DNA of 64,000 nucleotides from Argopecten irradians (lineage: Eukaryota; Mollusca; Bivalvia; Pectinida; Pectinidae). Made by a program: the position numbers and the translations under genes. The stretch lies in contig NC_091135.1 in NCBI RefSeq assembly GCF_041381155.1, forward strand, positions 64,445,067-64,509,066. The letters are read 5' to 3'. Numbering within the stretch: the first letter of the stretch is position 1; every line of letters begins with the position of its first letter. The notes below the pieces were generated by a model. The model made no database searches. It was not told where the DNA came from and was given only the letters and a program-made list of their open reading frames with translations. Shown here piece by piece: positions 6,881-64,000 of this stretch.

Positions 6881-9800
6881 ATATGTTTGTATATAGTTAA
6901 GGTCATCCGTTTGTTGTTGTATATAATAGATAATAATTGGAGCAGGCTTAATATAAGTTTGTGAACTTTTGCCCAATCCTTTTTGTGTATGAATTTACAA
7001 ATAAACTATGTTTAAATCGATATCACTATAATGCATGAAATATATATCTACCTCTTCATGCATGGCTTGTCCGGTGGTGGACATCGGCTTGCGGTCATCC
7101 CTATGAATCTTACTGTCGTAATCATACTTTATATGGAACAGACGCTTGTAATTGGTCGACACATCCGCCTGCAAACAAGAAAGGTAATATAATTTGGATA
7201 CAGAGAACAACAATATCATAATTCAGTTCAACGTATTGCTTTCTTGCATCCATACAAAAGGGATCGAAAGCAGAACATATACATTAAAACAACAACGTAG
7301 ACATTTATCAATCAAGTTTTCCTCAGTTCAAATGACTTTTCAATAAAGATGCCTAAATCGAAGAGTCGTATAAAATTTTCAAAATCTGTTAGATGATGGT
7401 TAATTTCATCTTTATGTAAATTCTCACTGTAGAGTTAACGGGCCACTTAAAAATAAAGTGGGTTTCATTCTCCACGTCATTACAGCGAAACGCAGATGAC
7501 GGGGAATGTTTTTTACCCTACCCGCCTCGATTTCTAGACTGTTTGCTAATTCGCAGTTTTGCGAGCAATTTTCTGAATTCAAAATCCTTTATAGAAACAT
7601 AGGGTTCTTCCTTAGAGTTTTGTTTGAGTTTACTACACAGAAAAAAATTACTATTGTTATCTGACTGATTTATCTTAGTTGTACAAATCGCCTTGAATGT
7701 ACCTTGTATCGATTTCTAGAATAATAGTTTCAGACTACGTTTTAACATCCTACTAGAATTGTCATTTTCAAAGTTGTAAGAAATTTTCTTTTCTTTTATA
7801 ATATTTGAAACATAGGAAACCCACGGATACGTTCCATTTGCATGTATATTTTTACTGACAGTCGGTGCTTCTTTCACCAGGACATTGATGTTTTTTGTGA
7901 AATCCTTCTTAAATAGCATAAAGCTTGTATATTAAACTATATATGATTTAGCCCTGGAAGCTATATTCACCGCATACTAAGCCATTTTGCAGAATTTCAA
8001 ATTAATTTACTCGAATGGTGTTTTATCAATTATGGAAAATGGATCAAACCATGTCTTGTTCGAGCAAGCTCTATTACTCACATTCGCTATCTTGCTATAA
8101 TAATCTGCATACCAAATTTCAGTTATACGTCAAAATTGGTCCGACTAGGGAATTGAATTATTTTTTTCCATAGCCATATGGGCATATCAGCTATTCCGTT
8201 AGCAATTGTTTAATTGATAATAAACTTTTTTTTTTCACTTTTCGCACAAATTCCTAACAATGTTCGGAGCGTCAGATGAGGAATGGTATGGGCTTTACGC
8301 AGGTTACAGATACTGGGACCCAACCAATGAGGAATGGTATGGGCTTTACGCAGGTTACAGATACAGGGACCCAACCAATGAGGAATAGTATGGGCTTTAC
8401 GCAGGTTACAGATACTGGGACCCAACCAATGAGGAATGGTATCGGCTTTACGCAGGTTACAGATACTGGGACCCAACCAATGAGGAATGGTATGGGCTTT
8501 ACGCAGGTTACAGATACTGGGACCCAACCAATGAGGAATGGTATGGGCTTTACGCAGGTTACAGATACTGGGACCCAACCAATGAGGAATGGTATGGGCT
8601 TTACGCAGGTTACAGATACTGGGACCCAACCAATGAGGAATGGTATCGGCTTTACGCAGGTTACAGATACTGGGACCCAACCAATGAGGAATGGTATGGG
8701 CTTTACGCAGGTTACAGATACAGGGACCCAACCAATGAGGAATGGTATCGGCTTTACGCAGGTTACAGATACTGGGACCAAACCAATGAGGAATGGTATC
8801 GGCTTTACGCAGGTTACAGATACTGGGACCCAACCAATGAGGAATGGTATGGGCTTTACGCAGGTTACAGATACAGGGACCCAACCAATGAGGAATGGTA
8901 TGGGCTTTACGCAGGTTACAGATACTGGGACCCAACCAATGAGGAATGGTATGGGCTTTACGCAGGTTACAGATACTGGGACCCAACCAATGAAGAATGG
9001 TATGGGCTTTACGCAGGTTACAGATACTGGGACCCAACCAATGAGGAATGGTATGGGCTTTACGCAGGTTACAGATACTGGGACCCAACCAATGAGGAAT
9101 GGTATGGGCTTTACGCAGGTTACAGATACTGGGACCCAACCAATGAGGAATGGTATGGGCTTTACGCAGGTTACAGATACTGGGACCCAACCAGCAGTCG
9201 TGAAGGAACAGCAGTCGTGATTGTGTGTATATTCTACTGTGTGTCCAGATTTCTGAATGTCCGGAGCTGCTGACGAATACTTCGTGATGGTGTTGTTTTG
9301 TTTAAGTGGAAATAAAGTGTTTCGTGAGATGCAATCAATTAAATTTTCCCCAAATCATGACTACTGGTCCTTTACGACTACTAGTAGAATCCCAGTAAAG
9401 TTAAATTTACCAGTTTTTCACCCCGGGCATCGTGGTATATGGTCTCTTACCAATGGTGTCCTGCACGGGGGTGTGGATTAATCAATATCAATCAATATTT
9501 TTTATTTCAGTGTCACACATCGTAAAAATATACAGCCAAGTAATTTTTGATGCCCAGCCGATATCGGCTTATGAGACACTTATGAAAAGGTATAGAGTTA
9601 AACATTCCTCGCTGTTTTAAATAATAAAACTATGTTTAAAATCACATTGGAAGTACAGAAGTAATTTCATCATGTTATCATTTAAAATATTTCTTTACAT
9701 TCTTAAAATAAGCCTTCTTCGTTTCATCATTTGATAAATTGTTTTAGATAATAGAAATTGAAGTCCATTATTACAGATTAAATACAACACATTTTCAATT

Positions 9801-25165: not shown

Positions 25166-26124
25166 AACAGTTCAATTAATTATTTTAAAATCATATAGAT
25201 TATCATATTCCTTCTAATTATGCACACTATTTCTTATCATCATTATCATTCTCACCAAAGATTATTATAATTTTAAATCTCTAGTCAGTCACCAAATTTT
25301 CATTCACATTTAAAAGTTCATCCTCATCAGTCATAATTGATCCTCATCAACAAACTCAAAATTATCATTCTCAAAAGTCATAGCCATTCATCATCACTTT
25401 CACCAATCAGTTAATCCTTTCATCATTTACATTTACTGATAATTTTTACAGTAATTCATCATTTTCATCACTCATCATCATGGCCACCCATCATCAATGC
25501 TGTAATCATTCATTATCGTCCTACGGTGGCTGTTTTAATTCTCTGTTTTTCGTCTTTTCGCCCCGAAAAGACGAAAATTAACAAATTTAAATTTCGTCTT
25601 TTCGCGGCGAAAAGACGAAATGTCAAATACGAAAAGACGAAAGTGAAGCACGCTAATTAGCGCCTTTAATTTTCGTCTTTTAGCCTTCAAAAATATCGTC
25701 TTTTCGTCTTTTCGCCCCGAAAAATTACAAATTACAGATATACTCTGTCATCTTTCATATATGACGGAGATTGTAATGTAATTTCTAATGTACAATTATG
25801 ATGAAGACCATGTCATGTACATGTAGTCAAATTTTCTTTTCAAATAATGCACAGTACCTACTGATTGACTGTTATAATTAACTGTATTTGAGAATTTTCT
25901 TGGTACAAGTCCTTCCTTTAAACTCAAAGTCTTCACGAGTTGTCTTTAAATTATTTTGTTAACAAGTTGATCCGTGGTTCAAACGCTTTCAAATATTACC
26001 CGCCGAAAACCTTTTTTTCAAGTTGTATGTAGGGGAGGCAACTCCTATAAGTGCTATGTTTAGCATCTTAAAGAGACAATTCACTCAGGCTAATTCTTTT
26101 ACATAACCAAGAAAACACCTCCGA
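25166..26124. repeat. Segmental duplication, copy 1
   Basis: About 957 bp nearly identical to 28530-29485 in the same orientation, with only a few substitutions and small indels. It contains ATCATT-rich sequence, then a palindrome cluster, and ends inside the first ~50 bp of the TTAA MITE. Confidence 0.9.
25553..25722. repeat. Cluster of CGTCTTTTCG palindromes
   Basis: Repeated arms TTTCGTCTTTTCG and CGAAAAGACGAAA form successive hairpins with loops such as CGG and CCC. The same cluster is found at 28913-29090 and, in inverted orientation, at 30377-30460 and 32205-32345. Confidence 0.9.
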
Positions 26125-28529: not shown

Positions 28530-29485
28530 AAAACAGTTCAATTAATTATTTTAAAATCATATAGATTATCATATTCCTTCTAATTATGCACACTATTTCT
28601 TATCATCATTATCATTCTCACCAAAGATTATTATAATTTTAAATCTCTAGTCAGTCACCAAATTTTCATTCACATTTAAAAGTTCATCCTCATCAGTCAT
28701 AATTGATCCTCATCAACAAACTCAAAATTATCATTCTCAAAAGTCATAGCCATTCATCATCACTTTCACCAATCAGTTAATCCTTTCATCATTTACATTT
28801 ACTGATAATTTTTACAGTAATTCATCATTTTCATCACTCATCATCATGGCCACCCATCATCAATGCTGTAATCATTCATTATCGTCCTACGGTGGCTGTT
28901 TTAATTCTCTGTTTTTCGTCTTTTCGCCCCGAAAAGACGAAAATTAACAAATTTAAATTTCGTCTTTTCGCGGCGAAAAGACGAAATGTCAAATACGAAA
29001 AGACGAAAGTGAAGCACGCTAATTAGCGCCTTTAATTTTCGTCTTTTAGCCTTCAAAAATATCGTCTTTTCGTCTTTTCGCCCCGAAAAATTACAAATTA
29101 CAGATATACTCTGTCATCTTTCATATATGACGGAGATTGTAATGTAATTTCTAATGTACAATTATGATGAAGACCATGTCATGTACATGTAGTCAAATTT
29201 TCTTTTCAAATAATACACAGTACCTACTGATTGACTGTTATAATTAACTGTATTTGAGAATTTTCTTGGTACAAGTCCTTCCTTTAAACTCAAAGTCTTC
29301 ACGAGTTGTCTTTGAATTATTTTGTTAACAAGTTGATCCGTGGTTCAAACGCTTTCAAATATTACCCGCCGAAAACCTTTTTTTCAAGTTGTGTAGGGGA
29401 GGCAACTCCTATAAGTGCTATGTTTAGCATCTTAAAGAGACAATTCACTCAGGCTAATTCTTTTACATAACCAAGAAGCAAAATA
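28530..29485. repeat. Segmental duplication, copy 2
   Basis: Direct copy of 25166-26124. At its right end it continues into a complete TTAA MITE, while copy 1 breaks off inside that element. Confidence 0.9.
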
Positions 29486-34310: not shown

Positions 34311-37300
34311 GTAAGTATTTATTACATTTTTTCGCAGTAAAATATAAGGTTTTTACGGTGAACCTATTAATGCAATATACTTAACGCCAGTGAAAATATC
34401 AATTTTGATATATTCACTCGCTTTTGACCAATCGGAATGCTGCATTGACAGTGAAAATATCATTTTGATTGTTATGTCATTAGTTTGTACACTGATTTGT
34501 GTAGAAATGTGACATTATGCAAATAAAAATGCGATGTAATATTGCATGGGCAAAGAACTCTGTGAAATACAATGACAGAAGTAGTAGTGATGGTCTTCTG
34601 TAAATGGAAACAAGAAAACAAATGTAATAAATAGAATGTTCCTTGTTTCTTGATGAATAACAATAATATTTCACCTCGTGAGGTGGAAACTTGGATAGTT
34701 TCCATTCATGCGAATCTATTTAAGCTTTTAACTATCTATGGTCTATATTGATGCCAGAGCTTTGCAGACAATCTTCATAAAGTGCGTTAGATGATTGTCT
34801 GCAAAGCTCTGGCATCTATATAGACCATAGATGCCATAGGGAGATAGTTTAATGCTTATATTTACATTATCAACACACTTTAGGATATCTGCATTAACAT
34901 TGTTTAAGCTAGACCAGGAAAACCGTTTATCAACGACGATTTAATCCACAAGAATGAACAGCCATTTTGACAGTGATCAGTTGACGTCATCACGTCAGCG
35001 TTAGTGACGTCATAATGGTCAAGTTTTGGGTGTCAGTTATGCTGTCATATACTTCACTTTGCCTTAGTTAGTTTATATAGTAGAAGTGGCAAGCAAATGT
35101 AAATATATATATCAATAAGCAGTGTAACCTTTGACCTATATTTTTGAGCGTGGCTGACTGTTGAAGTAGTTGAAGTAAAGAACATGCTATGGAAAGGTGA
35201 TGACTAAAAATTACTGTGTTGTACATACCTTTACATTGGTGATATTGTTGACTTCAGCACCTCCCCACCTGATATCGTTGCTTTTGCTGAGAGTACAGAA
35301 CATGTGAGTCAGGTGGCCAAACTCTGTAACGACCACGAGGTACCTCTCATCCCGTTTGGGAGTGGTACGGGACTAGAAGGGGGCATCAATGCATTGAAGG
35401 TGAGTATGAACAGTAAAAGATTAGGATGTTTTACTACTAGGATAGAGTTTCTAAAATTGTATAATGTAGATTCACTTGATATTCATATCGTTGCATGCAG
35501 ACTATCTTTAGAATTAATGTCTTGTCTAAACAGGTTTGTGCTTTATGTTACATTGATATTTAGCTACTAAACATAGATTCTACAGACACATGTTCTCTCA
35601 CATGATTTAAAAAATTTGACCTTGATGTTATAGGGAGGTCTGTGCCTAGATCTTTCCAAAATGAATAAGATTGTGTCGGTGAATGCTGAAGATTTTGACT
35701 GTACTGTTGAGGCTGGTGTAACCAGGGTAACGCTCAACAACTACCTAAGGGACACTGGACTTACGTTTCCTATTGGTAAATTATCTTGTCTTATCTTTCT
35801 TTATATTTCTTATGTACCACTGATCTTTTAGTAAGCTGTCCGACAAGTTAACCTCTACAGATAATTTAAGGTATTCCAATATCAGGCAAATATTCTGTTA
35901 AATCGGACCACAAGTTTGAGCCAGGTTTTTTTCTGTTTTTGGTAGACCCTGGTGCAGATGCTTCTGTGTGTGGTATGTGTGCCACGAGTGCCTCTGGTAC
36001 AAATGCAGTGAGATATGGAACAATGAGAGAAAATGTCCTCAACATGGAAGTTGTACTCCCTGATGGCCGCATCATCCACACAGCTGGCAAAGGGAGGCGT
36101 ACCAAGTAAGATACAGTATTTAGGGTTTGTGTTGTGAAATGAGTTATAGCAATATTCAAAGAGTTTGGTTGAAAGAGGTCATTATAGATATCATAAGCTC
36201 AGTTATAGGAGTTTCCAATATAAAAGGCTGAATTTTTCTGAGCATCTTGTAGAATCTCTTTATTTGCATGACATTTTAAAGCAATGAAGTATCCCAACTT
36301 CAATATAATGTAAAATTAACATGGCTCTTTTTCTGTATGTTGCTGATATATGAACAATTTTGGTGATTGTGAAAATTCATCATTGAGCTAACATAGTCGT
36401 ATTATAAAGTAAAAATATTTCAAAATAATTAAGTTTACATTTTATACATTTTCCTATACATGGAATGGATGAATAGATATGATACATTTCTGTGATTTTA
36501 CAGAAAAACCTCAGCAGGATACAATCTCACCAATCTGTTTGTTGGATCCGAAGGAACACTGGGAATTATCACCCAGGCAACACTTCGTCTCCACGGTATT
36601 CCAGAGGCTGTAAGTGTAGCAAGAAGACCCATACCAAAGGATTCTTTATAGAGTTATTGGCCCTTTTCCATTTTTTTAGCAAATGCATATGTGTTTACCA
36701 TGTGGTAATAAAACAATTGCGTAATGTTTCCATTAAAACAATTGTGTAATGTTTACAACAATAGAGTAATGTTTACATTAAAATATAGAGCAATGTTTCC
36801 ATTAAAACAATTGCGTAATGTTTACATTAAAACAATTGTGTAATGTTTACATTAAAACAATTGTGTAATGTTTACATTAAAACAATTGTGTAATGTTTAC
36901 ATTAAAACAATTGTGTAATGTTTACATTTAAACAATTGTGTAATGTTTACATTAAAACAATTGTGTAATGTTTACATTAAAACAATTGTGTAATGTTTAC
37001 AACAATAGAGTAATGTTTACATTAAAATATAGAGCAATGTTTCCATTAAAACAATTGCGTAATGTTTACATTAAAACAATTGTGTAATGTTTACATTAAA
37101 ACAATTGTGTAATGTTTACAACAATAGAGTAATGTTTACATTAAAATATAGAGCAATGTTTCCATTAAAACAATTGCGTAATGTTTCCATTAAAACAATT
37201 GTGTAATGTTTACATTAAAACAATTGTGTAATGTTTACAACAATAGAGCAATGTTTCCATTAAAACAATTGTGTAATGTTTACAACAATAGAGTAATGTT

Positions 37301-40300
37301 TACATTAAAACAATTGTGTAATGTTTACATTAAAACAATTGTGTAATGTTTACATTAAAACAATTGTGTAATGTTTACATTAAAACAATTGTGTAATGTT
37401 TACATTAAAACAATTGTGTAATGTTTACATTAAAACAATTGTGTAATGTTTACATTAAAACAATTGTGTAATGTTTACAACAATAGAGTAATGTTTACAT
37501 TAAAACAATTGTGTAATGTTTACATTAAAACAATTGTGTAATGTTTACATTAAAACAATTGTGTAATGTTTACATTAAAACAATTGTGTAATGTTTACAT
37601 TAAAACAATTGTGTAATGTTTACAACAATAGAGTAATGTTTACATTAAAACAATTGTGTAATGTTTACATTAAAACAATTGTGTAATGTTTACATTAAAA
37701 CAATTGTGTAATGTTTACAACAATAGAGTAATGTTTACATTAAAACAATTGTGTAATGTTTACATTAAAACAATTGTGTAATGTTTACAACAATAGAGTA
37801 ATGTTTACATTAAAACAATTGTGTAATGTTTACAACAATAGAGCAATGTTTCCATTAAAACAATTGCGTAATGTTTACAACAATAGAGTAATGTTTACAT
37901 TAAAATATAGAGCAATGTTTCCATTAAAACAATTGCGTAATGTTTTCATTAAAACAATTGTGTAATGTTTACATTAAAACAATTGTGTAATGTTTACAAC
38001 AATAGAGCAATGTTTCCATTAAAACAATTGTGTAATGTTTACAACAATAGAGTAATGTTTACATTAAAATATAGAGCAATGTTTCCATTAAAACAATTGC
38101 GTAATATTAACATTAAAACAATTGTGTAATGTTTACATTAAAACAATTGTGTAATGTTTACATTAAAACAATTATGTAATGTTTACAACAATAGAGTAAT
38201 GTTTACATTAAAATATAGAGCAATGTTTCCATTAAAACAATAGCGTAATGTTTCCATTAAAACAATTGTGTAATGTTTACATTAAAACAATTGTGTAATG
38301 TTTACAACAATAGAGTAATGTTTACATTAAAACAATTGTGTAATGTTTACATTAAAACAATAGCGTAATGTTTCCATTAAAACAATTGTGTAATGTTTAC
38401 ATTAAAACAATAGCGTAATGTTTCCATTAAAACAATTGTGTAATGTTTGCATTAAAACAATAGCGTAATGTTTCCATTAAAACAATTGTGTAATGTTTAC
38501 ATTAAAACAATTGTGTAATGTTTACAACAATAGAGTAATGTTTACATTAAAATATAGAGCAATGTTTCCATTAAAACAATTGCGTAAAGTTTCCATTAAA
38601 ACAATTGCGTAATGTTTCCATTAAAACAACTTTGATTCACTGCTGCTATATGATGTTGTAATGTATTTGACAACTTTGATTATAGAATACATTATCACAT
38701 ATCACTTATTTTCACAAATACATATTTTTTTCAGACAATATCAGCCGTTTGTTCCTTCAATACTATACAAGAGGCTGTAGATTCTACAGTTCAGGTCCTA
38801 CAGATGGGCATTCCTATAGCTAGGATAGGTAACTATAAAATCTGTAAAGGAAATTCCTTATTTCTACTTAACAGCTTAATTTTTATATTCCAGAATAAAA
38901 TCAACTCTAGATTAAAGCTTCAGTTTAACAGTCATTGAAGGGCCCTTCTGATGTTTCAATTCTTAATTAGTTAAAATATTTTGACATTGAGGAGAAGAGC
39001 TGATAAAAAAAGGATTTATATTATATATGTGTATGTTTCCTTGCCGTAGAATTCCTGGATGAGGTGTCCGTCGATGCATGTAATAAGTACAGCAAGCTGG
39101 ACATGAAAGTGGCGCCATCTTTATTCTTCGAGTTCACAGGAAGTCCTGACACACTGGATAAACAGGCAGAGGTTGTCAGTAAGTTAGTCCAGCTTAATTG
39201 AGTGATCAAGTATTATCGAATGATGAAAAGATCTTGAACTTTTTCCATGTTAGTTATAAACAACAGGTCAGAGATAAAGGATGTTGGATACATTCACTAG
39301 GTTTAGAGATAGGATGTTGGATACATTCGCTAGGTTTAGAGATAGGATGTTGGATACATTCGCTAGGTTTAGAGATAGGATGTTGAATACATTTGCTAGG
39401 TTTAGAGATAGGATGTTGGATACCTTCGCTAGGTTTAGAGATAGGATGTTGGATACATTTGCTAGGTTTAGAGATAGAATGTTGGATACATTCGCTAGGT
39501 TTAGAGATAGGATGTTGGATACATTCACTAGGTTTAGAGATGGAATGTTTGATACCTTTGCTAGGTTTAGAGATAGAAAGTTGGATACATTCGCTAGGTT
39601 TAGAGATAGGATGTTGGATACATTTGCTAGGTTTAGAGATAGAATGTTGGATACCTTTGCTAGATTTAGAGATAGGATGTTGGATACATTCGCTAGGTTT
39701 AGAGATAGGATGTTGGATACATTCGCGAGGTTTAGAGATAGGATGTTGGATACATTCCCTAGGTTTAGAGATAGGATGTTGGATACATTCCCTATGTTTA
39801 GAGATAGAATGTTGGATACATTCGCTAGGTTTAGAGATAGGATGTTGGATACATTCGCTAGGTTTAGAGATAGGATGTTGGATACATTCACTAGATTTAG
39901 GTAGGATGTTGCGTACATTCACTATTTTGTCTATATATAACACACACCGACCGGATGTTGCATACAATCACTATTTTGTCTATATATAACACACACCGAT
40001 CGGATGTTGCATACAATCACTATTTTGTCTATATATAACACACACCGATCGGATGTTGCATACAATCACTATTTTGTCTATATATAACACACACCGATCG
40101 GATGTTGCATACAATCACTATTTTGTCTATATATAACATATAACACACACCGATCGGATGTTGCATACAATCACTATTTTGTCTATATATAACACACACC
40201 GATCGGATGTTGCATACAATCACTATTTTGTCTATATATAACACACACCGATCGGATGTTGCATACAATCACTATTTTGTCTATATATAACACACACCAA

Positions 40301-43300
40301 ACAATTTTATTCCTTGCAACACTTTATTGTCACTAAAGCAAATTTGTAATAAGTTAAGATCAGGAACCTGAATGATTATTTAACTGTAAATGTATCGCTT
40401 TGCAGAGGATATTGTATCCATGAACGGCGGATCTGAGTTTAAGTGGGCATCAGATCCTGAGGCAAGAAACCATCTTTGGAAGGCTAGACACGACATTCTG
40501 TACGCCTGTATGGCCCTCAAACCTGGCAGTAAGGTAGGCATGACATTCTGTACACCTGTATGGCCCTCACACCTGGTAGTAAGGTAGGCATGACATTCTG
40601 TACACCTGTATGGCCCTCACACCTGGCAGTAAGGTACACATGACATTCTGTACACCTGTATGGCCCTCACACCTGACAGTAAGGTAGGTAAGACATTCTG
40701 TAACTCAGTATGGCCCTCACACCTGACAGTAAGGTAGGCTGTATGGCCCTCACACCTGACAGTAAGGTAGGCATTCTGTACACCTGTATGACCCTCACAC
40801 CTGGCAGTAAGGTAAACATGACATTCTGCACACCTGTATGGCCCTCACACCTGGCAGTAAGATAGGCATGACATTTTGTACACCTGTATTGCCCTCACAC
40901 CTGGCAGAAAGGTAGGCATGACATTGACAGTAAGGTATACATGCCATTCTTTACACCAGTATGATCCTCACACCTGGCAGTAGGGTAGGTATGACATTCA
41001 GTACACCTGTATGGCTCTCACACCTGACAGTAAGGTACACATGACATTCTGTAACCCAGTATGGCCCTCACACCTGACAGTAAGGTAGGCATGACATTCT
41101 GTACACCCGTATGGCCCTCACACCTGACAGTAAGGTACACATGACATTCTGTAACCCAGTATGGCCCTCACACCTGACAGTAAGGTAGGCATGACATTCT
41201 GTACACCTGTATGGCCCTCACACCTGACAGTAAGGTACACATGACATTCTGTACACCTGTATGGCCCTCACACCTGACAGTAAGGTAGGCATGACATTCT
41301 GTACACCTGTATGGCCCTCACACCTGACAGTAAGGTAGGCATGACATTCTGTACACCTGTATGACCCTCACACCTGGCAGTAAGGTACACATGACATTCT
41401 GCACACCTGTATGGCCCTCACACCTGGCAGTAAGATAGGCATGACATTCTGTACACCTGTATGGCCCTCACACCTGGCAGTAAGGTAGGCATGACATTCT
41501 GTACACCTGTATGGCCCTCACACCTGACAGTAAGATAGGCATGACATTCTGTACACCTGTATGGACCCTCACACCTGACAGTAAGGTAGGCATGACATTC
41601 TGTACACCTGTATGACCCTCACACCTGGCAGTAAGGTACATGACATTCTGTACACCTGTATGACCCTCACACCTGGCAGTAAGGTACATGACTAAGATAG
41701 CATGACATTCTGTACACCTGTATTGCCCTCACACCTGGCAGAAAGGTAGGCATGACATTGACAGTAAGGTATACATGACAGTCTGTACACCTGTATGATC
41801 CTCACACCTGGCAGTAGGGTAGGTATGACATTCTGTACACCTGTATGGCCCTCACACCTGACAGTAAGGTACACATGACATTCTGTACACCTTTATGGCC
41901 CTCACACCTGACAGTAAGGTAGGCATGACATTCTGTACACCTGCATGGCCCTCACACCTGACAGTAAGTAAGTAGGCATGACATTCTGTACACCTGTATG
42001 GCCCTCACACCTGACAGTAAGGTAGGCATGACATTCTGTACACATGCATGGCCCTCAAACCTGACAGTAAGATAGGCATGACATTCTGTACACCTGTATG
42101 GCCCTCACACCTGACAGTAAGGTAGGCATGACATTCTGTACACCTGTATGGCCCTCACACCTGACAGTAAGGTAGGCATGACATTCTGTACACCTGTATG
42201 GCCCTCACACCTGACAGTAAGATAGGCATGACATTCTGTACACCTGTATGGCCCTCACACCTGGCAGTAAGGTAGGCATGACATTCTGTACACCTGTATG
42301 GCCCTCACACCTGGCAGTAAGGTAGGCATGACATTCTGTACACCTGTATGGCCCTCACACCTGGCAGTAAGATAGGCATGACATTCTGTACACCTGTATG
42401 ACCTCATACCTGGTAGTAAGGTAGGCATGACATTCTGTACACCTGTATGGCCCTCAAACCTGGCAGTAAGGTACATATGACATTCTGTACACCTGTATGA
42501 CCCTTACACCTGGCAAAACTGGTAACACATGACATTCTGTACACCTGTATGGCCCTCACACCTGGCAATAAGGTAGGCATGACATTCTGTACACTGTATG
42601 ACCCTCACACCTGGCAGTAAGATAGGCATGACATTCTGTACACCTGTATGGCCCTCACACCTGGCAGTAAGATAGGCATGACATTCTGTACACCTGTATG
42701 GCCCTCACACCTGGCAGTAAGATAGGCATGACATTCTGTACACCTGTATGGCCCTCACACCTGACCGTAAGGTAGGCATGACATTCTTTACACCTGTATG
42801 ACCCTCACACCTGGCAGTAAGGTAGGCATGACATTCTGTACATCTGTATGGCCCTCACACCTGGCAGTAAGGTAGGCATGACATTCTGTACACCTGTATG
42901 GCCCTCACACCTGACAGTAAGATACACATGACAGTCTGTACACCTATATGGCCCTCACACCTGGCCGTAAGGTAGGCATGACATTCTTTACACCTGTATG
43001 ACCCTCACACCTGGTAGTAAGGTAGGCATGACATTCTGTACACCTGTATGGCCCTCACACCTGGCAGTAAGGTAGGCATGACATTCTGTACACCAGTATG
43101 ACCCTTACACCTGGCAGTAAGGTACACATGACATTCTTTACACCTGTATGACCCTCACACCTGGCAGTAAGGTAGGCATGACATTCTGTACATCTGTATG
43201 GCTTTCACACCTGGCAGTAAGGTACACATGACATTCTGTACACCTGTATGACCCTCACACCTGGCAGTAAGGTAGGCATGACATTCTGTACACCTGTATG

Positions 43301-46300
43301 GCCCTCACACCTGGCAGTAAGGTAGGCATGACATTCTGTACACCTGTATGGCCCTCACACCTGGACAGTAAGGTAGGCATGACATTCTGTACACCTGTAT
43401 GGCCCTCACACCTGGCAGTAAGGTACACATGACATTCTGTACACCTGTATGACCCTCACACCTGGCAGTAAGGTACACATGACATTCTGTACACCTGTAT
43501 GGCCCTCACACCTGGCAGTAAGGTAGGCATGACATTCTGTACACCTGTATGGCCCTCACACCTGGCAGTAAGGTACACATGACATTCTGTACACCTGTAT
43601 GGCCCTCACACCTGACAGTAAGGTAGGCATGACATTCTGTACACCTGTATGGCCCTCACACCTGACAGTAAGGTACACATGACATTCTGTACACCTGTAT
43701 GGCCCTCACACCTGGCAGTAAGGTAGGCATGACATTCTGTACACCTGTATGGCCCTCCACACCTGGCAGTAAGATAGGCATGACATTGACTGTACATGCC
43801 TGTATACACCCTCACACCTGGCAGTAAGGTAGGCATGACATTCTGTACACCTGTATGGCCCTCACACCTGACAGTAAGGTACACATGACATTCTGTAACA
43901 CCTGTATGGCCCTCACACCTGGCAGTAAGGTAGGCATGACATTCTGTACACCTGTATGGCCCTCACACCTGGCAGTAAGGTAGGCATGACATTCTGTACA
44001 CCTGTATGGCCCTCACACCTGGCAGTAAGGTAGGCATGACATTCTGTACACCTGTATGGCCCTCACACCTGACAGTAAGGTAGGCATGACATTCTGTACA
44101 CCTGTATGGCCCTCACACCTGGCAGTAAGATAGGCATGACATTCTGTACACCTGTATGGCCCTCACACCTGGCAGTAAGTAGGCATGACATTCTGTACAC
44201 CTGTATGGCCCTCACACCTGGCAGTAAGGTAGGCATGACATTCTGTACACCTGTATGACCCTCACACCTGACAGTAAGGTAGGCATGACATTCTGTACAC
44301 CTGTATGGCCCTCACACCTGGCAGTAAGGTAGGCATGACATTCTGTACACCTGTATGACCCTCACACCTGCAGTAAGGTACACCTGTATAGCCCTCACAC
44401 CTGGCAGTAAGATAGGCATGACATTCTGTACACCTGTATGGCCCTCCCACCTGGCAGTAAGGTAGGCATGACATTGACAGTAAGGTATACATGTCATCCT
44501 TTACACCTGTATGATCCTCACACCTGGCAGTAGGGTAGGTATGACATTCTGTACACCTGTATGGCCCTCACACCTGACAGTAAGGTACACATGACATTCT
44601 GTACACCTGTATGGCCCTCACACCTGACAGTAAGGTAGGCATGACATTCTGTACACCTGTATGGCCCTCACACCTGACAGTAAGGTAGGCATGACATTCT
44701 GTACACCTGTATGGCCCTCACACCTGACAGTAAGGTAGGCATGACATTCTGTACACCTGTATGGCCCTCACACCTGACAGTAAGGTAGGCATGACATTCT
44801 GTACACCTGTATGGCCCTCACACCTGACAGTAAGGTAGGCATGACATTCTGTACACCTGTATGGCCCTCACACCTGACAGTAAGGTAGGCATGACATTCT
44901 GTACACCTGTATGGCCCTCACACCTGACAGTAAGGTAGGCATGACATTCTGTACACCTGTATGGCCCTCACACCTGACAGTAAGGTAGGCATGACATTCT
45001 GTACACCTGTATGGCCCTCACACCTGGCAGTAAGGTAGGCATGACATTCTGTACACCTGTATGGCCCTCACACCTGGCAGTAAGGTAGGCATGACATTCT
45101 GTACACCTGTATGGCCCTCACACCTGGTAGTAAGATGGGCATGACATTCTGTACACCTGTATGACCTCATACCTGGTAGTAAGGTAGGCATGACATTCTG
45201 TACACCTGTATGGCCCTCAAACCTGGCAGTAAGGTACATATGACATTCTGTACACCTGTATGACCCTTGCACCTGACAATAAGGTACACATGTCATTCTG
45301 TACACCTGTATGGCCCTCACACTTGGCAATAAGGTAGGCATGACATTCTGTACACCTGTATGGCTCTTACACCTGGTAGTAAGGTACACATGACATTCTG
45401 TACACATGTATGGCCCTCACACCTGACAGTAAGGTAGGCATGACATTCTGTACACCTGTATGGCCCTTACACCTGGCAGTAAGGTACACATGACATTCTG
45501 CACACCTGTATGGCCCTCACACCTTGCAGTAAGATAGGCATGACATTCTGTACACCTGTATGGCCCTCCCACCTGGCAGTAAGGTAGGCATGACATTGAC
45601 AGTAAGGTATACATGCCATTCTTTACACCTGTATGATCCTCACATCTGGCAGTAAGGTAGGCATGACATTCTGTACACCTGTATGGCCCTTACACCTGGC
45701 AGTAAGGTACACATGACATTCTGCACACCTGTATGGCCCTCACACCTTGCAGTAAGATAGGCATGACATTCTGTACACCTGTATGGCCCTCCCACCTGGC
45801 AGTAAGGTAGGCATGACATTGACAGTAAGGTATACATGCCATTCTTTACACCTGTATGATCCTCACATCTGGCAGTAGGGTAGGTATGACATTCTGTACA
45901 TCTGTATGGCTTTCACACCTGGCAGTAAGGTACACATGACATTCTTTACACCTACGTATGACCCTCACACCTGGCAGTAAGGTAGGTATGACATTCTGTA
46001 CACCTGTATGACCCTCACACCTGACAGTAAGGTACACATGACATGCTGTAACCCAGTATGACCCTCACACCTGACAGTAAGGTAGGCATGGCATTCTGTA
46101 CACCAGTATGACCCTCACACCTGGCAGTAAGGTAGGCATGACATTCTGTACATCTGTATGGCTTTCACACCTGGCAGTAAGGTACACATGACATTCTGTA
46201 CACCTGTATGGCCCTCACACCTGACAGTAAGGTAGGCATGACATTCTGTACACCTGTATGGCCCTCACACCTGGCAGTAAGGTACACGTGACATTCTGTA

Positions 46301-49300
46301 CACCTGTATGGCTCTCACACCTGGTATAAGGTACACATGACAATGACATTATGTATACCTCTATGGCCCTCAGATAATTAGACTCTTTTTCAGCCATTCT
46401 CTACAGATAATTAGACTCTTTTTCAGCTGTACTCTACAGATGATTTTTCTTTTTCTGTCATACTCAACTGATAATTTGATTTTTTTTTCAGTCGTACTCT
46501 ACAGATAATTTGTCTTTTTCAGCCATACTCTACAGATGTCTGTGTACCTATCTCCAGCTTACCAGAGGTCGTGGTGAGGTCAAAAGAAGCTATACAGAAG
46601 GCTGGGGTCATAGGTCTGTTCATTCTCTTATTGAGTTAGGATAAGCTTTCTTTATGCTTTGTTCAAATAAGTGCTACCTGCACTCTATTGCAATATATGG
46701 TGATCTGTTCTTTATAACTTAAGTTGTCTGAAACAATTTATAACTGTTTTTGTTAGCTCACCTGGCCCGTCGTCCATCGTCCGTCCGTCCATCAAAATTT
46801 CCTTTAAATCGCTACTAGTCATAGAGTTTTGCATGGATTGTAACCAAATTTGGCCACAAACATCCTTGGGAGAAGGGGAACAGAACTTGTATAAATTTTG
46901 GCTCTGATCCCCCGGGGCAGGAGGGGCTGGGCCCAATAGGGGAAATAGAGGTAAATCATATAAATCGCTACTTGTCCTAGAGTTCCCCATGGATTATAAC
47001 AAAATTTGGCCACAAGCATCTTTGGGGGAAGGGGAACAGTACTTGTATAAGTTTTGGCTCTGACCCCCCAGGGGCAGGAGGGGCAGGGCCCAATATGGGA
47101 AATAGAGGTAAATCCTATAAATCACTACTTGTCCTAGAGTTCTGCATGGATTGTGACCAAATTTGGCCACAAACATCATTGGGGGGAAGGAGAATATAAC
47201 TTGTATAAATTTTGGCTCTGACGCCCAAGGGGGCTGAAGGAGCGGGGCCCAGTAGGGAAAATACAGGTAAATCCTATAAATCTCTACTTGTCCTAGAGTT
47301 CTGCATGGATTGTGACAAAATTTGGCCACAAACATCTTTGAGGGAAGGGGAACAGAACTTGTATAAGTTTTGGCTCTGACCCCCCGGGGGCAGGAGGGGC
47401 AGGGCCCAATAGGGGAAATAGAGGTAAATCCTATAAATCGCTACTTGTCCTAGAGTTCTGCAGGAATTGTAAACAAATTTGGCCACAAACATCCTTGGGA
47501 GAAGGGGAACAGAATTTGTATAAATTTTGACTCTGACCCCTCAGGGGCAGGAGGGGCGGGGCCCAATAAGGGAATTAGAGATAAATCTTATAAATCGCTA
47601 CTTGTCCTAGAGTTCTGCTTGGATTGTAATTAAATTTGGCCACAAACATCCTTGGGAGAGGGGGAACATAACTTGTATAAATTTTGGCTTTGACCCCCTG
47701 GGGGCAGGAGGGGTGGGCCCAATAAGGGAAATACATGTAGAGATAAATCTTATAAATCGCTACTTGTCCTAGAGTTCTGCTTGGATTGTAACTAAATTTG
47801 GCCACAAACATCCTTGGGAGAGGGGGAACATAACTTGTATAAATTTTGGCTTTGACCCCCTGGGGGCAGGAGGGGTGGGGCCCAATAAGGGAAATAGAGT
47901 TAAATCCTATAAATCGCTACTTGTCCTATAGTTCTGTATGGATTGTAACCAAATTTGGCCACAAACATCCTTAGGAGAAGGGGAACAGAACTTGTATCAA
48001 TTTTGACTCTGACCCCTCAGGGGCAGGAGGGGCGGGGCCCAATAAGGGAATTAGAGGTAAATCTTATAAATCGCTACTTGTTCTAGAGCTCTGCATGGAT
48101 TGTAACCAAATTTGGCCACAAACATCCTTGGGAGAAGGGGCACATCACTTGTATAAATTTTGGCTCTGACCCCCTGGGGGCAGGAGGGGTGGGGCCCAAT
48201 AGGGGACTTCGAGGGAAATATTCAAATTCCTTCAGAAAAGAAACAATGAACCTGTATTCAGTACATTACTTGGCATTACAAACCAGGTGAGCGATACAGG
48301 CCCTTTGGGCCTCTTGTTTTGTTCCATGTTTGATCTTATCAAGGAAGCATTTCTGTTGCTGAGCATGCTGATGAAGTTCACTTCATGGAAACCTGCTTAG
48401 CCCAACCCTTGTTTTAAGCTAAATTGTCATTGCTGCCCTTACATCCCCCAGGAGACGATATTAAGGATATATAAATAGGAAAGATGCATGTAACATTTGT
48501 TTAATATTTTTAAAAAATGGTAACTCGGCCAAAACGATATTTTTACTATAAATGCTGTGTTCTGACTGGTCAACATTGAATGAAAATATCAAAACTGATA
48601 TTTTCAAAACTGATATTTTCACTCGAGTGAAAAATACCACATATATTTTCTCAATAAAACCATATATTTCACTGAAAAATGTATTATAGTGAATTATTAT
48701 ACCTCACTTTCATTTGGAATGTTCTGCTTGGATTAAACTTGATCACATGAAATTGAATAAGTTAATGTTTCACCGAGATTGGAAGGCGAAGGAAATAACA
48801 CCAGGAAAATAACCCCTGAGGGAAATAACCCCAGGAAAATAACCCCTTGGAAGCTCCGCATATGATAGGAAGTTGAAGTCATCTGCAACGTCAACCAACA
48901 ATGGCAATGCTGTTGCTTATTTATTTGCAGCCCGACGAATTTAGCAATGTTGTTTGAAAATATCTTCATGAGTTTTTTTACCAGAGATTTTTTTCTTTTA
49001 ATTTTGTTCGCTATTATAAAATAGTTATGTCCCTATGTGTCGGGATACAATTGTCTCCCTGGAAAAAGTTATTTTCTCTCGGGCTTCGCCCCCTTACAAA
49101 ATGATTTAGTAACAAGTATAATTCAAAAACAACATATGAAAACAGTATCAATTGATGCACATCAAGCTTTTATTACATGAACCCAGTGCATGCGTGTTTG
49201 TAAATTGCATACATGTACATGTACTCCATTATACATGTAGCTTCATGTCTTAAGGACACAGTCAGTTAAATGTACAGTTTGTTCTGCGTTGAAATAATAC

Positions 49301-52300
49301 ACTTCGACGTCAAACATATATAAACAGATTCAGATTGACATTAAGATACATTATCTTATGCTTAGTACTACATTCCGTAAAATAAAAATTGTATACATAC
49401 AGTAGGATTAGCCTAGGCCTAATGTTGTAAGTAGCCTAGGTGGAATTTTAATAATAAATATCAAACGTATTCACTATTAAATGGCTCCAGACGCTTAGTG
49501 AATGTTATTCGATTATTTCCTACTCTCCTACCGTGTTTATATTGAAACTTTAAAAACTTAAACTGTAGTCATCAGCTGGAAGTCATCATCATCGTTGTTA
49601 GAAACCGAAACAATCAATGCAACGTTGTCACATTTTGTGGTTACGCTTCAAACTCAGGTCATCAAAGCGTTTGTTTCAAAGTGCCAGGAACACGAAGGGT
49701 TTTGGTAACGTAGACGATAACGGTATCTAAAAATAACCGTGTAATATACTTTTTCTATAAACTACTTCCGGAAAAATCGTGCAATATAGTTTTTTATCGG
49801 TGATCACGTGGCATGTATTTGACCAATGAGAAGTGACAAAAAATCCAGAAATATAATAAACCATATTATAAAGTGATTTATTACATAATTTGTTTACATC
49901 AATTTATATATGAGGAAATATAATATTTTCAGCTATTATCCTGTGATATATACCGTATTACAAAGTGATATATACCATATTACAAAGTGATATATACCGT
50001 ATTACAAAGTGATATATACCATATTACAAAGTGATATATACCGTATTACAAAGTCAAAGTGCCAGGATTACAAAGGGTTTTGGTAACGTATACGGTATCT
50101 AAAAATAAGTGATATATACTTTTTCTATAAACTACTTCCGGAAAAATCGTGCAATATAGTTTTTTATCGGTGATCACGTGGCATGTATTTGACCAATGAG
50201 AAGTGACAAAAAATCCAGAAATATAATAAACCATATTATAAAGTGATTTATTACATAATTTGTTTACATCAATTTATATATGAGGAAATATAATATTTTC
50301 AGCTATTATCCTGTGATATATACCGTATTACAAAGTGATATATACCATATTACAAAGTGATATATACCGTATTACAAAGTGATATATACCGTATTACATA
50401 GAGAATACATGGTTAGTATCTTACAATACAAGGTTTATTTTGGTGCGAGACTTAGGAAAGCCAAGATGACGAGGCTTTGCTGAGTCATCTCGGCTTTCCG
50501 TGACGAGCACCAAAATAAACCTTGTATTGTAAGATACTAACCGTGTATTCTTTTTATCCTGCAACCATTATGCCATTCAAATGAAAGCAAAGTGACAGTT
50601 ATTTACTTGGTTTCGTTCGAATCGAGACACTTCTTTGATGCGGAGGTAAAGATTCATTCACTAAACTGAATGAGAGTGTACTCCTTTTTACTGCAATGGG
50701 AAATAAATAAGCGCATTCGCAAACAGTAACCGTAATCCTATTCAGCGTGATATATCGCTGAAACAAAATAAAAACACTCAAAAAACAATAAATACCCATG
50801 AAAGAATTACTTTACAATACATACATTTGCCATGAGCCAAGAAAAAGACGACACCACCATTCGAGATTTTCGATATCGTAAAATGACGTCATTCCGATGA
50901 ATGTGACGTCACATTTTAGCAGGACTGAATGACGTTTCATTCACTAGAAGGTTCAAGTTTTGGTTCAAGTTAGAAAAAGTTCCGTTAGATATGGAACAAA
51001 TTCACGTGATCGTATTGATGGATAAAGCATTTCGTATTGACGGATAAAGTACAAGTTTATCCGGCAGTAGTTATCGGTCAGTATGTGGGACAGTTGCAGG
51101 ATAAAAAGTGATATATACCGTATTACAAAGTGATATACCGTATTCGACCCAATAAGCGCCCATGTCCCTATAAGCGCCCTCCCCCATTTTGAGGCCTCGA
51201 ATTCAATTGTCCACGCATAAATAAAGACCAAAACTACAAAATACTGTCTAGATTTGCAATGATTTCGTCTTATTAGCACCTTTTCATTTTTTTCAATTTT
51301 TTAAACGCCCTGGGCGCTTATTGGTTCGAATACGGTGTACCATATTGCCTCTGTTGACGTTCCCCTCCGTGGCCTCCTTTGGATTACGAGTGTTTTCTCA
51401 TTACCAGGTCCAATTGTCGGCCATGTTGGGGACGGTAATTTCCATGTGTTTTTCCCCACGGATCGCTCCAATCCTGAGGAAGTGAAGAAGATCAGCGATG
51501 TTTCCGTGTATATGGCTGAGTAAGTGTCAACTATCTCTTTTGTAGATGCTTCCATGGTCGGCCATGTTGGAGATGGTAATTTTCATACACTGTTTACAAT
51601 CGACACTGAAAATAAAGGGGAAATAGATTTGGTTAAAGACTTGGCAGATACCATAGCTAAGTAAGTTAAAAGAAAGATTGATTTAAACTCGAAACATCAT
51701 TTTGAAATCATGCAAACAGGATGAGGTTTCCATAGTACACAATGTGACATCATCATGTGCAGTTTGTAAGTTTCTTTTAGAAAAAGGATGTAACAGGCTC
51801 ACACAGTCTTGATGCAACAATCGGTGTTTACCTGTGAAGTCAGATAATCTAATATGTAAATACACTGGACGAAAAAGACGGTCAAAACAGTTTCTTTAAA
51901 ATAATAGTACCTAGACAGAAAAGCTTTAATACTAATTTAGATGAAAAAATGCTGATTATATAGAGGTTTCAAAACAACAAGTGGTTGCTAGATATGGAAT
52001 TTATTCCACACAAGTTATTTACAAAAGATACAAGCTTTAGCTTTTTAGGTCATCTGACCTATTGTCATCATGCACCGTCCGTCGTCGTCCGCCGTGCATA
52101 AACTTTTCATTCAAACGACTTCTTCTCAAGACCGAGAAGGACCAGGGTACTGATATTTGGCCTGTAGCATGCTTGGATGAAGGGCTACCAAGTTTGTTAA
52201 AATAAATGACCTTGACCTTCATTCAAGGTCACAGAGTCAAGTAGGCTAAAAATCCTTTAAACAACTTCTTGTTAATAACTAAGAGGCCTAGAGACCTGAT

Positions 52301-57988: not shown

Positions 57989-60900
57989 AAACACCAACCT
58001 GTATCAAAGCTGTACTTGGTGTCTATATAGCATCAATATAATAACACACACCAACCAAACACTAGTACTTGGTGTCTATATAGCATCAATATAATAACAT
58101 ACACCAACCAAACATTTGTACTTGGTGTCTATATAGCATCAATAACCTACACCAACCAAACATTAGTACTTGGTGTCTATATAGCATCAATAACCTACAC
58201 CAACCAAACATTAGTACTTGGTGTCTATATAGCATCAATAACATATACAACACCAACCAAACATTAGTACTTGGTGTCTATATAGCATCAATAACCTACA
58301 CCAACCAAACATTAGTACTTGGTGTCTATATAGCATCAATAACATACACCAACCAAACATTAGTACTTGGTGTCTATATAGCATCAATAACATACACCAA
58401 CCAAACATTAGTACTTGGTGTCTATATAGCATCAATAACATACACCAACCAAACATTAGTACTTGGTGTCTATATAGCATCAATAACATACACCAACCAA
58501 ACATTAGTACTTGTGTCTATATAGCATCAATAACACACCAACCAAACATTAGTACTCAAGTACTGGTGTCTATATAGCATCAATAACATACACCAACCAA
58601 ACATTAGTACTTGGTGTCTATATAGCATCAATAACATACACCAACCAAACATTAGTACTTGGTGTCTATATAGCATCAATAACCTACACCAACCAAACAT
58701 TAGTACTTGGTGTCTATATAGCATCAATAACATACACCAACCAAACATTAGTACTTGGTGTCTATATAGCATCAATAACATACACCAACCAAACATTAGT
58801 ACTTGGTGTCTATATAGCATCAATAACATACACCAACCAAACATTAGTACTTGGTGTCTATATAGCATCAATAACATACACCAACCAAACATTAGTACTT
58901 GGTGTCTATATAGCATCAATAACCTACACCAACCAAACATTAGTACTTGGTGTCTATATAGCATCAATAACATACACCAACCAAACATTAGTACTTGGTG
59001 TCTATATAGCATCAATAACATACACCAACCAAACATTAGTACTTGGTGTCTATATAGCATCAATAACATACACCAACCAAACATTAGTACTTGGTGTCTA
59101 TATAGCATCAATAACATACACCAACCAAACATTAGTACTTGGTGTCTATATAGCATCAATAACCTACACCAACCAAACATTAGTACTTGGTGTCTATATA
59201 GCATCAATAACATACACCAACCAAACATTAGTACTTGGTGTCTATATAGCATCAATATAATAACATACACCAACCAAACATTAGTACTTGGTGTCTATAT
59301 AGCATCAATAACCTACACCAACCAAACATTAGTACTTGGTGTCTATATAGCATCAATAACATACACCAACCAAACATTAGTACTTGGTGTCTATATAGCA
59401 TCAATAACATACACCAACCAAACATTAGTACTTGGTGTCTATATAGCATCAATAACCTACACCAACCAAACATTAGTACTTGGTGTCTATATAGCATCAA
59501 TAACATACACCAACCAAACATTAGTACTTGGTGTCTATATAGCATCAATAACCTACACCAACCAAACATTTGTACTTGGTGTCTATATAGCATCAATAAC
59601 ATACACCAACCAAACATTAGTACTTGGTGTCTATATAGCATCAATAACATACACCAACCAAACATTAGTACTTGGTGTCTATATAGCATCAAACATACAC
59701 CAACCAAACATTAGTACTTGGTGTCAGCATCATAACTACACCAACCAAACATTAGTACTTGGTGTCTATATAGCATCAATAACATACACCAACCAAACAT
59801 TAGTACTTGGTGTCTATATAGCATCAATAACATACACCAACCAAACATTAGTACTTGGTGTCTATATAGCATCAATAACATACACCAACCAAACATTAGT
59901 ACTTGGTGTCTATATAGCATCAATATAATAACATACACCAACCAAACATTAGTACTTGGTGTCTATATAGCATCAATAACATACACCAACCAAACATTAG
60001 TACTTGGTGTCTATATAGCATCAATAACATACCACACACCAACCAAACATTAGTACTTGGTGTCTATATAGCATCAATAACATACACCAACCAAACATTA
60101 GTACTTGGTGTCTATATAGCATCAATAACATACACCAACCAAACATTAGTACTTGTGTCTATATAGCATCAATAACATACACCAACCAAACATTAGTACT
60201 TGGTGTCTATATAGCATCAATAACATACACCAACCAAACATTAGTACTTGGTGTCTATATAGCATCAATAACATACACCAACCAAACATTAGTACTTGGT
60301 GTCTATATAGCATCAATAACATACACCAACCAAACATTAAACATTAGTACTTGGTGTCTATATAGCATCAATATAATAACCTACACCAACCAAACATTAG
60401 TACTTGGTGTCTATATAGCATCAATAACCTACACCAACCAAACATTAGTACTTGGTGTCTATATAGCATCAATATAATAACATACACCAACCAAACATTA
60501 GTACTTGGTGTCTATATAGCATCAATAACCTACACCAACCAAACATTAGTACTTGGTGTCTATATAGCATCAATAAAATAACATACACCAACCAAACATT
60601 AGTACTTGGTGTCTATATAGCATCAATAACCTACACCAACCAAACATTAGTACTTGGTGTCTATATAGCATCAATATAATAACATACACCAACCAAACAT
60701 TAGTACTTGGTGTCTATATAGCATCAATAACATACACCAACCAAACATTAGTACTTGGTGTCTATATAGCATCAATAACATACACCAACCAAACATTAGT
60801 ACTTGGTGTCTATATAGCATCAATAACATACACCAACCAAAACATTAGTACTTGGTGTCTATATAGCATCAATATAATAACATACACCAACCAAACATTA

Positions 60901-63900
60901 GTACTTGGTGTCTATATAGCATCAATAACATACACCAACCAAACATTAGTACTTGGTGTCTATATAGCATCAATAACATACACCAACCAAACATTAGTAC
61001 TTGGTGTCTATATAGCATCAATAACATACACCAACCAAACATTAGTACTTGTGGTGTACTTGTGTCTATATAGCATCAATAACATACACCAACCAAAATA
61101 GTACTTGGTGTCTATATACATCAATAACATACACCAACCAAACATTAGTACTTGGTGTCTATATAGCATCAATAACATACACCAACCAAACATTAGTACT
61201 TGGTGTCTATATAGCATCAATATAATAACTACACCAACCAAACATTAGTACTTGGTGTCTATATAGCATCAATATAATAACATACACCAACCAAACATTA
61301 GTACTTGGTGTCTATATAGCATCATAATAACCTACACCAACCAAACATTAGTACTTGGTGTCTATATAGCATCAATATAATAACTACACCAACCAAACAT
61401 TAGTACTTGGTGTCTATATAGCATCAATAACTACACCAACCAAACATATACTTGGTGTCTATATAGCATCAATAACATACACCAACCAAACATTAGTACT
61501 TGGTGTCTATATAGCATCAATATAATAACATACACCAACCAAACATTAGTACTTGGTGTCTATATAGCATCAATAACATACACCAACCAAACATTAGTAC
61601 TTGGTGTCTATATAGCATCAATAACCTACACCAACCAAACATTAGTACTTGGTGTCTATATAGCATCAATAACATACACCAACCAAACATTAGTACTTGG
61701 TGTCTATATAGCATCAATAACATACACCAACCAAACATTAGTACTTGGTGTCTATATAGCATCAATAACATACACCAACCAAACATTAGTACTTGGTGTC
61801 TATATAGCATCAATATAATAACCTACACCAACCAAACATTAGTACTTGGTGTCTATATAGCATCAATAACATACACCAACCAAACATTAGTACTTGGTGT
61901 CTATATAGCATCAATAACATACACCAACCAAACATTAGTACTTGGTGTCTATATAGCATCAATAACATACACCAACCAAACATTAGTACTTGGTGTCTAT
62001 ATAGCATCAATAACATACACCAACCAAACATTAGTACTTGGTGTCTATATAGCATCAATATAATAACCTACACCAACCAAACATTAGTACTTGGTGTCTA
62101 TATAGCATCAATATAATAACCTACACCAACCAAACATTAGTACTTGGTGTCTATATAGCATCAATATAATAACATACACCAACCAAACATTAGTACTTGG
62201 TGTCTATATAGCATCAATATAATAACATACACCAACCAAACATTAGTACTTGGTGTCTATATAGCATCAATAACATACACCAACCAAACATTAGTACTTG
62301 GTGTTATATAGCTATATATAATCCACACAACATATATTGGTGTCTATAACATACACCAACCAAACATTAGTACTTGGTGTCTATATAGCATCAATAAATA
62401 CACCAACCAAACATTAGTACTTGGTGTCTATATAGCATCAATAACTACACCAACCAAACATTAGTACTTGGTGTCTATATATCAATCAATAACATACACC
62501 AACCAAACATTAGTACTTGGTGTCTATATAGCATCAAATAAATACACCAACCAAACATTAGTACTTGGTGTCTATATAGCATCATCAATAACATACACCA
62601 ACCAAACATTAGTACTTGGTGTCTATATAGCATCAATAACATACACCAACCAAACATTAGTACTTGGTGTCTATATAGCATCAATAACATACACCAACCA
62701 AACATTAGTACTTGGTGTCTATATATAGCATCAATAAATACACCAACCAAACATTAGTACTTGGTGTCTATATAGCATCAAAATATAACATACACCAACC
62801 AACCAACATTAGTACTTGGTGTCTATATAGCATCAATAACATACACCAACCAAACATTAGTACTTGGTGTCTATATAGCATCAATATAATAACCTACACC
62901 AACCAAACATTAGTACTTGGTGTCTATATAGCATCATATAATAACATACACCAACCAAACATTAGTACTTGGTGTCTATATAGCATCAATATAATAACAT
63001 ACACCAACCAAACATTAGTACTTGGTGTCTATATAGCATCATAACCTACACCAACCAAACATTAGTACTTGGTGTCTATATAGCATCAATAAACATACAC
63101 CAACCAAACATTAGTACTTGGTGTCTATATAGCATCAATAACATACACCAACCAAACATTAGTACTTGGTGTCTATATAGCATCAATAACATACACCAAC
63201 CAAACATTAGTACTTGGTGTCTATATAGCATCAATATAATAACATACACCAACCAAACATTAGTACTTGGTGTCTATATAGCATCAATATAATAACATAC
63301 ACCAACCAAACATTAGTACTTGGTGTCTATATAGCATCAATATAATACACCAACCAAACATTAGTACTTGGTGTCTATATAGCATCAATAACATACACCA
63401 ACCAAACATTAGTACTTGGTGTCTATATAGCATCAATAACATACACCAACCAAACATTAGTACTTGGTGTCTATATAGCATCAATATAATAACCTACACC
63501 AACCAAACATTAGTACTTGGTGTCTATATAGCATCAATATAATAACATACACCAACCAAACATTAGTACTTGGTGTCTATATAGCATCAATAACCTACAC
63601 CAACCAAACATTAGTACTTGGTGTCTATATAGCATCAATAACATACACCAACCAAACATTAGTACTTGGTGTCTATATAGCATCAATATAATAAATACAC
63701 CAACCAAACATTAGTACTTGGTGTCTATATAGCATCAATAACCATACACCAACCAAACATTAGTACTTGGTGTCTATATAGCATCAATAACCTACACCAA
63801 CCAAACATTAGTACTTGGTGTCTATATAGCATCAATAACATACACCAACCAAAATTAGTACTTGGTGTCTATATAGCATCAATAACATACACCAACCAAA

Positions 63901-64000
63901 CATTAGTACTTGGTGTCTATATAGCATCAATAACATACACCAACCAAACATTAGTACTTGGTGTCTATATAGCATCAATATAATAACATACACCAACCAA
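57989..64000. repeat. 48-bp minisatellite, about 120 copies, runs off the window
   Basis: The unit reads TAGTACTTGGTGTCTATATA, then GCATCAATAACATACACC and AACCAAACAT. Variants insert a TATAA (52-53 bp) or replace CATACACC by CCTACACC. The 48-bp length (16 codons) generates long open frames such as 248 codons on the minus strand, which are artefacts. It begins right after the transposon target site. Confidence 0.97.

Follow-up and report, generated by a model that had tools for sequence, protein, structure and literature searches.

Can an intron consist of nothing other than copies of its own two splice boundaries and, if so, how would it have come about and what would decide which of its many 5′ splice sites is used? 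Intron 9 of LDHD in Argopecten irradians raises these questions. In the window (the whole stretch of DNA analysed, 64,000 nt), ten LDHD exons from 35634 onward were placed via splice signals and reading frame. Exon 9, in the numbering of an earlier note on this DNA, occupies 40406..40533 (+ strand, 128 nt) and has splice signals and a frame that is open across exons; exon 10 occupies 46523..46613 (+, 91 nt). Joined, the two match mouse LDHD (8jdb, E 2.6e-23) and PF02913 (E 5.3e-13). (For human LDHD, the accessible parts of two papers place the end of exon 7 at Q310 and state no position for intron 9.) The 5,989 bp between them (40534-46522) are divided between two tandem arrays, one of the donor side (97.5%) and one of the acceptor side (2.5%), which adjoin with zero unique intron sequence between or around them: the final donor unit stops within TATGGCCCTCA and CAGATAATT follows directly. 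What the earlier note described as an intron satellite born from an exon end and its 5′ splice site is thus real and exon-derived, as far as the donor array goes; the second array, the lack of unique intron sequence and the recurrence elsewhere in the genome were overlooked.

The donor array (40534..46371, +) repeats a 50-bp unit, made up of the exon 9 end and its donor, some 116 times directly downstream of the exon as had been claimed, with the last copy cut short. Tandem Repeats Finder (TRF) gives a span of 40480-46342, period 50 and 116.3 copies, and cyclic alignment divides the region into one exonic copy and 120 segments within the intron, of which 106 lack no more than two columns (‘full units’); the copy number is that of a single assembly. 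At least the last 42 nt of exon 9 (40492-40533) and 8 intron nt make up the unit, an amendment to the ‘last ~45 exon bases’ proposed earlier that leaves the exon origin standing. Because weaker similarity extends upstream to 40480, where the TRF span starts, the exonic copy is taken as 51 nt, or 17 codons (40480..40530, +). The exon 9 end, taken as 30 nt of exon and 12 of intron, reaches a score of 77 when compared with its intron, while 100 shuffles peak at 22, and so is closer to the units than chance. In a whole-genome DNA search with the unit there were at least 50 matches, and all those listed fall within this single array and none at other loci, on which ground a dispersed or centromeric satellite was rejected. 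The exon 9 copy retains residues common with mouse LDHD, and two CpGs in its 51 nt are TpG/CpA in the unit consensus (there being 5 CpGs in the entire array); as the exon keeps both these residues and the CpGs lost in the units, it is the source of the array. Two 223-bp blocks at 45477..45922 (+) are 97.3% identical and 387 bases match exactly at lag 50; the array would appear to have grown, at least partly, by blocks of several units. Divergence from the exon has no gradient along the array (Spearman 0.045, p 0.64). Expansion driven by a hairpin was considered and rejected, the two-unit fold being worse than 200 of 200 shuffles.

At its other end the intron closes with an acceptor array (46372..46522, +; TRF span 46371-46537), the last 151 bp, in which about four extra copies of a polypyrimidine-CAG segment together with the first ~15 nt of exon 10 recur with a period of 31-34. 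One copy lacks its CAG, having CTG at 46455-46459. The exon 10 acceptor scores 60 against its own intron with a shuffle maximum of 29, and the 14 other LDHD boundaries so compared, from exons at 35634 onward and with the two sides of the 26-nt gap that separates 11a from 11b set aside, are all below their own shuffle maxima. Derivation of the acceptor unit from coding exon 10 was entertained and is unsupported, the intronic, polypyrimidine part giving p 0.03-0.19.

Further tandem arrays are present in LDHD introns at 36709-38629, 39278-39924, 39904-40298 and 46800-48206, with units of 25, 33, 49 and 157 bp, and none of the four derives from the exon boundaries tested. Elsewhere in the window a 51-bp unit is repeated 18 times at 8276-9193, with long open frames on both strands, and a 48-bp unit 121.6 times at 58012-63980, reaching the window end and being about the size of the LDHD array. 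A translated stretch is identical at 25415-25747 and 28781-29113, a local duplication 3.4 kb apart. Within LDHD itself, exons 11a (112 nt) and 11b (115 nt), at 51408-51660, are a tandem pair 26 nt apart; both encode GHVGDGNFH and each joins exons 10 and 12 in frame. As the 26-nt gap is too short for splicing, they are probably mutually exclusive.

The reading that we prefer, with a probability of about 0.8, is that of a minisatellite spanning an exon-intron boundary: duplication across the donor followed by growth, tolerated since the exon-proximal donor remains. A segment over the 3′ end of exon 9 would have been duplicated in tandem and the duplicate then expanded to about 116 copies via slippage or unequal exchange, partly in multi-unit blocks, with each new copy adding a donor to the intron. 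At its 3′ end this intron would likewise have amplified its acceptor, to about five copies, until donor and acceptor arrays eventually met; because they now meet, the whole intron is copies of its own splice boundaries. With the exon-proximal donor still adjoining the exon, correct splicing would have stayed possible, and the array would for that reason have been free to grow under little constraint.

Two forms of the initial event can be envisaged. In one, 42 exon and 8 intron nt would have been duplicated, and no extra step is needed. In the other, the duplicated stretch would have been a coding in-frame segment of 51 nt lying between two AAGG motifs, and loss of a single base (GCTAG to GTAG) would have made the donor and turned the duplicate into an intron. 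The second, wholly coding form may be slightly favoured, since the main donor variants, GTAGGC and GTACAC, are each one base from the exon text with C deleted and the similarity passes through the donor: the alignment of AAGGCTAGACAC with AAGGTAGGCAT needs a single gap and has two mismatches (shuffle p 0.0016), a match equalled by 23 of 39,000 window 12-mers, and the same comparison with the other main donor variant gives p 0.0045 and 74 of 39,000. Counting against a coding-only origin, the intronic 8 nt alone are weak evidence (p 0.017-0.042) and an equally good match occurs in 5 of 1,234 coding 12-mers. A more radical proposal, that LDHD was once intronless here and that coding duplications on either side made both donor and acceptor, is of the Rogers/Hellsten type of intron gain, in which duplicated coding sequence reportedly supplies both splice sites. 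The zero unique sequence left in intron 9 would suit it, as would a donor unit that may be wholly coding, but the polypyrimidine part of the acceptor is without clear exon 10 origin at the p values given above and the exon/intron layout is otherwise ordinary for an old gene, and we consider this improbable.

Growth of a boundary-spanning array places potential decoy donors in the intron, and the many units in which GT has become AT had been ascribed to either mutation or selection against such decoys. GT is intact in 90 of the 106 full units and AT is present in 16, which belong to nine haplotypes, are evenly spread (4, 6, 3 and 3 per array quarter) and are unclustered (2 adjacent pairs vs 2.3 expected, p 0.71). 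The G column of GT is the fifth most variable of the 50 unit columns; the T column never varies, and several others are equally invariant. Those intronic units nearest exon 9 would be the most dangerous decoys and all seven keep GT, so decoys have not been purged. On column variability, the even spread, the absence of clustering and these nearest seven units, selection against decoys is unsupported and was rejected; the GT-to-AT pattern fits drift. (A weaker, GTACAC-type donor, with columns CA, is found in 26 of the 106.) With no divergence gradient and near decoys not purged the pattern is a neutral one, and we infer that growth of the donor array has been neutral.

Over a hundred near-identical donor contexts do stand in a row downstream of exon 9, as the earlier note held, and 50 is indeed not a multiple of three. 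The predicted true donor, AAG/GTAGGC (40534..40539, +), is the sole AAG/GT donor joining exon 9 to exon 10 without insertion. Paired with the true acceptor, the first extra donor gives a frameshift, and the TAG pointed to at 40585 is met in frame from the next two extra donors (the ones translated). The claim that the protein is broken by every later donor is nearly, and not entirely, correct. When 107 donors were paired with 8 CAG acceptors and the frame followed to the natural stop, 3 of the 856 pairs stayed open: the true donor with the true acceptor, the true donor with the acceptor ending at 46504 (+18 nt), and, as the exception, the second donor with the acceptor ending at 46491 (+81 nt). 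Calculated U1 pairing energies are -9.2 for AAGGTAGGC, -5.6 for AAGGTACAC and -3.2 for AAGATAGGC. The 9-mer of the true donor has the best U1 pairing among LDHD donors (-9.2, the others being -4.5 to -6.4) and is also present in 60 intronic copies, 23 of which are identical to the true donor over 26 nt (-12 to +14). As so many copies carry the same strong 9-mer, it is not obvious why the exon-proximal donor at 40534, the one predicted to be used, would be chosen.

The same design occurs in at least two other genes, likewise at the ends of coding exons. Eight further AGGTAAG-bearing arrays were sampled: two are at coding exons identified by homology, two likely so, and three are not exon-derived as far as seen; for the eighth (L088) the sequence seen stops short of the upstream end of the array. 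At L083 an exon reading HVEEIATMAIDLLAAIKQVKVPHTNSDHVQIRIGCHTG, from a guanylate cyclase (Pfam E 1.7e-5; no match in the PDB at 0.001), stops at the array's first donor and its last 20 nt recur in a 39-42-bp unit. At L086 the exon reads GGYHHTNTARCWTFLTAIAVGKKLPTDIPDHQ, is from HDAC8 (PDB E 1.5e-9; no Pfam or NCBIfam match) and also ends at the first donor, with its last 12-13 nt recurring at 32-bp steps. Both arrays are unrelated to that of LDHD. L084 and L078 score 50 and 55 (shuffle maxima 23); their exons, recognized by eye, gave no family match, that of L084 being presumably acyltransferase-like by its motif and that of L078 a possible first exon. At L082 repeats run up to the donor and no coding exon is visible by eye, and L085 and L087 do not exceed shuffles when compared with upstream sequence (18 vs 21 and 12 vs 19).

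Among exon loci picked regardless of arrays, 65 of the 69 in L009-L077 were scanned (L010 and L013, both LDHD itself, and L028 and L038 being omitted) and no boundary array was found; the set includes L016 (LDHD) and several of its loci are paralogues. Three loci scored 40 or more, none of them a boundary array: L033 has a two-copy repeat ~40 nt inside the intron, L051 a coding repeat within its own frame and L055, by eye, a single diverged copy of an exon end. (In L055, at about 2370-2800, a kinase exon end is followed downstream by this one diverged copy, perhaps an early step of such arrays.) With none in 65, boundary arrays are not common per exon, and the presence of two on one intron therefore needs a local cause or luck.

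Genome-wide, three AGGTAAG motifs spaced 18-48 gave 25,261 matches, compared with 4,076 for the reverse, 7,036 for a permuted motif and 5,572 for the reverse of the latter, an excess over the three controls of 3.6- to 6.2-fold by matches. For three CAGGTAAG spaced 22-24 the count was 978, with 12 for the reverse, 270 for the permuted form and 65 for its reverse, and for the acceptor-like TTTACAGG it was 4,404 vs 2,075. (An acceptor-like array at G000:C1:1195496-1195665, in which the unit starts with TTTACAG and then possibly coding sequence, is a candidate acceptor-side case.) These triplet figures count matches, not arrays. Among the matches listed, AGGTAAG accounts for 4 arrays over the initial 2.9 Mb of C1 and the permuted motif for ~4 in 7.1 Mb, and CAGGTAAG for 4 in 67 Mb vs 9-11 in about 560 Mb for the control, so that by arrays the excess is 2.5- to 3-fold and non-significant at such numbers. 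The sample of arrays being too small, preferential seeding at donors is unproven by arrays. By our estimate a good share of all AGGTAAG sites are real donors, and some AGGTAAG arrays would consequently coincide with real donors by chance. A wider proposal, that 5′ splice sites preferentially seed minisatellites in this genome, that many introns begin with an array of exon end plus donor as a mechanism of intron growth, and that LDHD is the extreme, with rows of U1 sites maybe useful, is accordingly tentative, and we hold it to be somewhat more probably wrong than right.

Rows of U1 sites could recruit U1 snRNP, shielding a long intron from premature polyadenylation or aiding splicing, and the arrays would then be kept as functional. 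The 90 of 106 GT-bearing units with their invariant T column, and the surplus of both AGGTAAG and CAGGTAAG triplets, are what might be expected from this, as is the finding that single donor motifs are no commoner than controls in 240 kb of loci (24 vs 29 and 36). However, other columns are as invariant as the T while the G is among the most variable, about a quarter of the full units have the weaker GTACAC-type donor, the match counts are driven by large arrays (per array the difference is ~2.5- to 3-fold, with 4 arrays each), and the donor excess is explicable through seeding alone; retention for function is accordingly unlikely. Least probable is an assembly artefact that inflated or misjoined the array, since, difficult as near-identical tandem units are to assemble, these carry many shared variants in an ordered pattern, are flanked by two exons of one open gene and have counterparts of the same design at other exons.

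The boundary-spanning minisatellite that we favor is not without precedent. The original report of the 31-bp VNTR of human CBS is said to be that of Lievers in 2001. Against the earlier note's belief that no satellite of exon terminus plus donor had been described, the CBS VNTR is just such a case: c.1444_1467+7(16_21), or 24 exon and 7 intron nt in 16-21 copies (PMC2630376). As in LDHD, where the unit likewise spans exon end and intron start and most copies carry the donor, the unit is a coding exon end plus the first intron bases, running from exon into intron; the difference lies in 16-21 copies of 31 bp as opposed to ~116 of 50 bp and in the CBS array being, judging by its name, on the donor side only, whereas donor and acceptor arrays are the whole of the LDHD intron. 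On the acceptor side, CBS 844ins68 duplicates the intron 7/exon 8 junction (PMC2630376) and potato RdRp gained an intron by a single tandem duplication across an acceptor (PMC4974935); both resemble the LDHD acceptor side in lying over an intron/exon junction, but each is one duplication and not an array. Human duplicated genes have internal tandem repeats at exon-intron boundaries, with 27 intron changes among recent paralogues (PMC2812944); like those of LDHD these repeats can alter introns, and unlike LDHD no intron wholly of boundary copies was found among the cases in the part of that paper available. In fission yeast SPOG_01682, an example cited in PMC4974935, four copies of an AGGT-bearing exonic repeat of 24 bp are spanned by an intron, an intron formed, like that of LDHD, within tandem copies of a coding segment, though with few copies and with the exonic repeat creating both splice sites. 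As CBS, potato RdRp and the human boundary repeats precede LDHD, the kind is already known. Searches of the mostly open-access literature brought up no account of an intron composed entirely of boundary copies, and what is new in the LDHD case is scale, two-sidedness and recurrence within a genome.

LDHD intron 9 offers a natural test of how 5′ splice sites are chosen, since its identical donors differ mainly in their distance from the exon; should splicing be accurate, the decision must lie with position or exon context and not with donor sequence. Were preferential seeding by splice sites to be true, this intron would be its most extreme example, both boundaries having multiplied to the exclusion of any other sequence. 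The recurrence suggests that introns may gain length from their own splice sites, something that is countable in annotated mollusc genomes.
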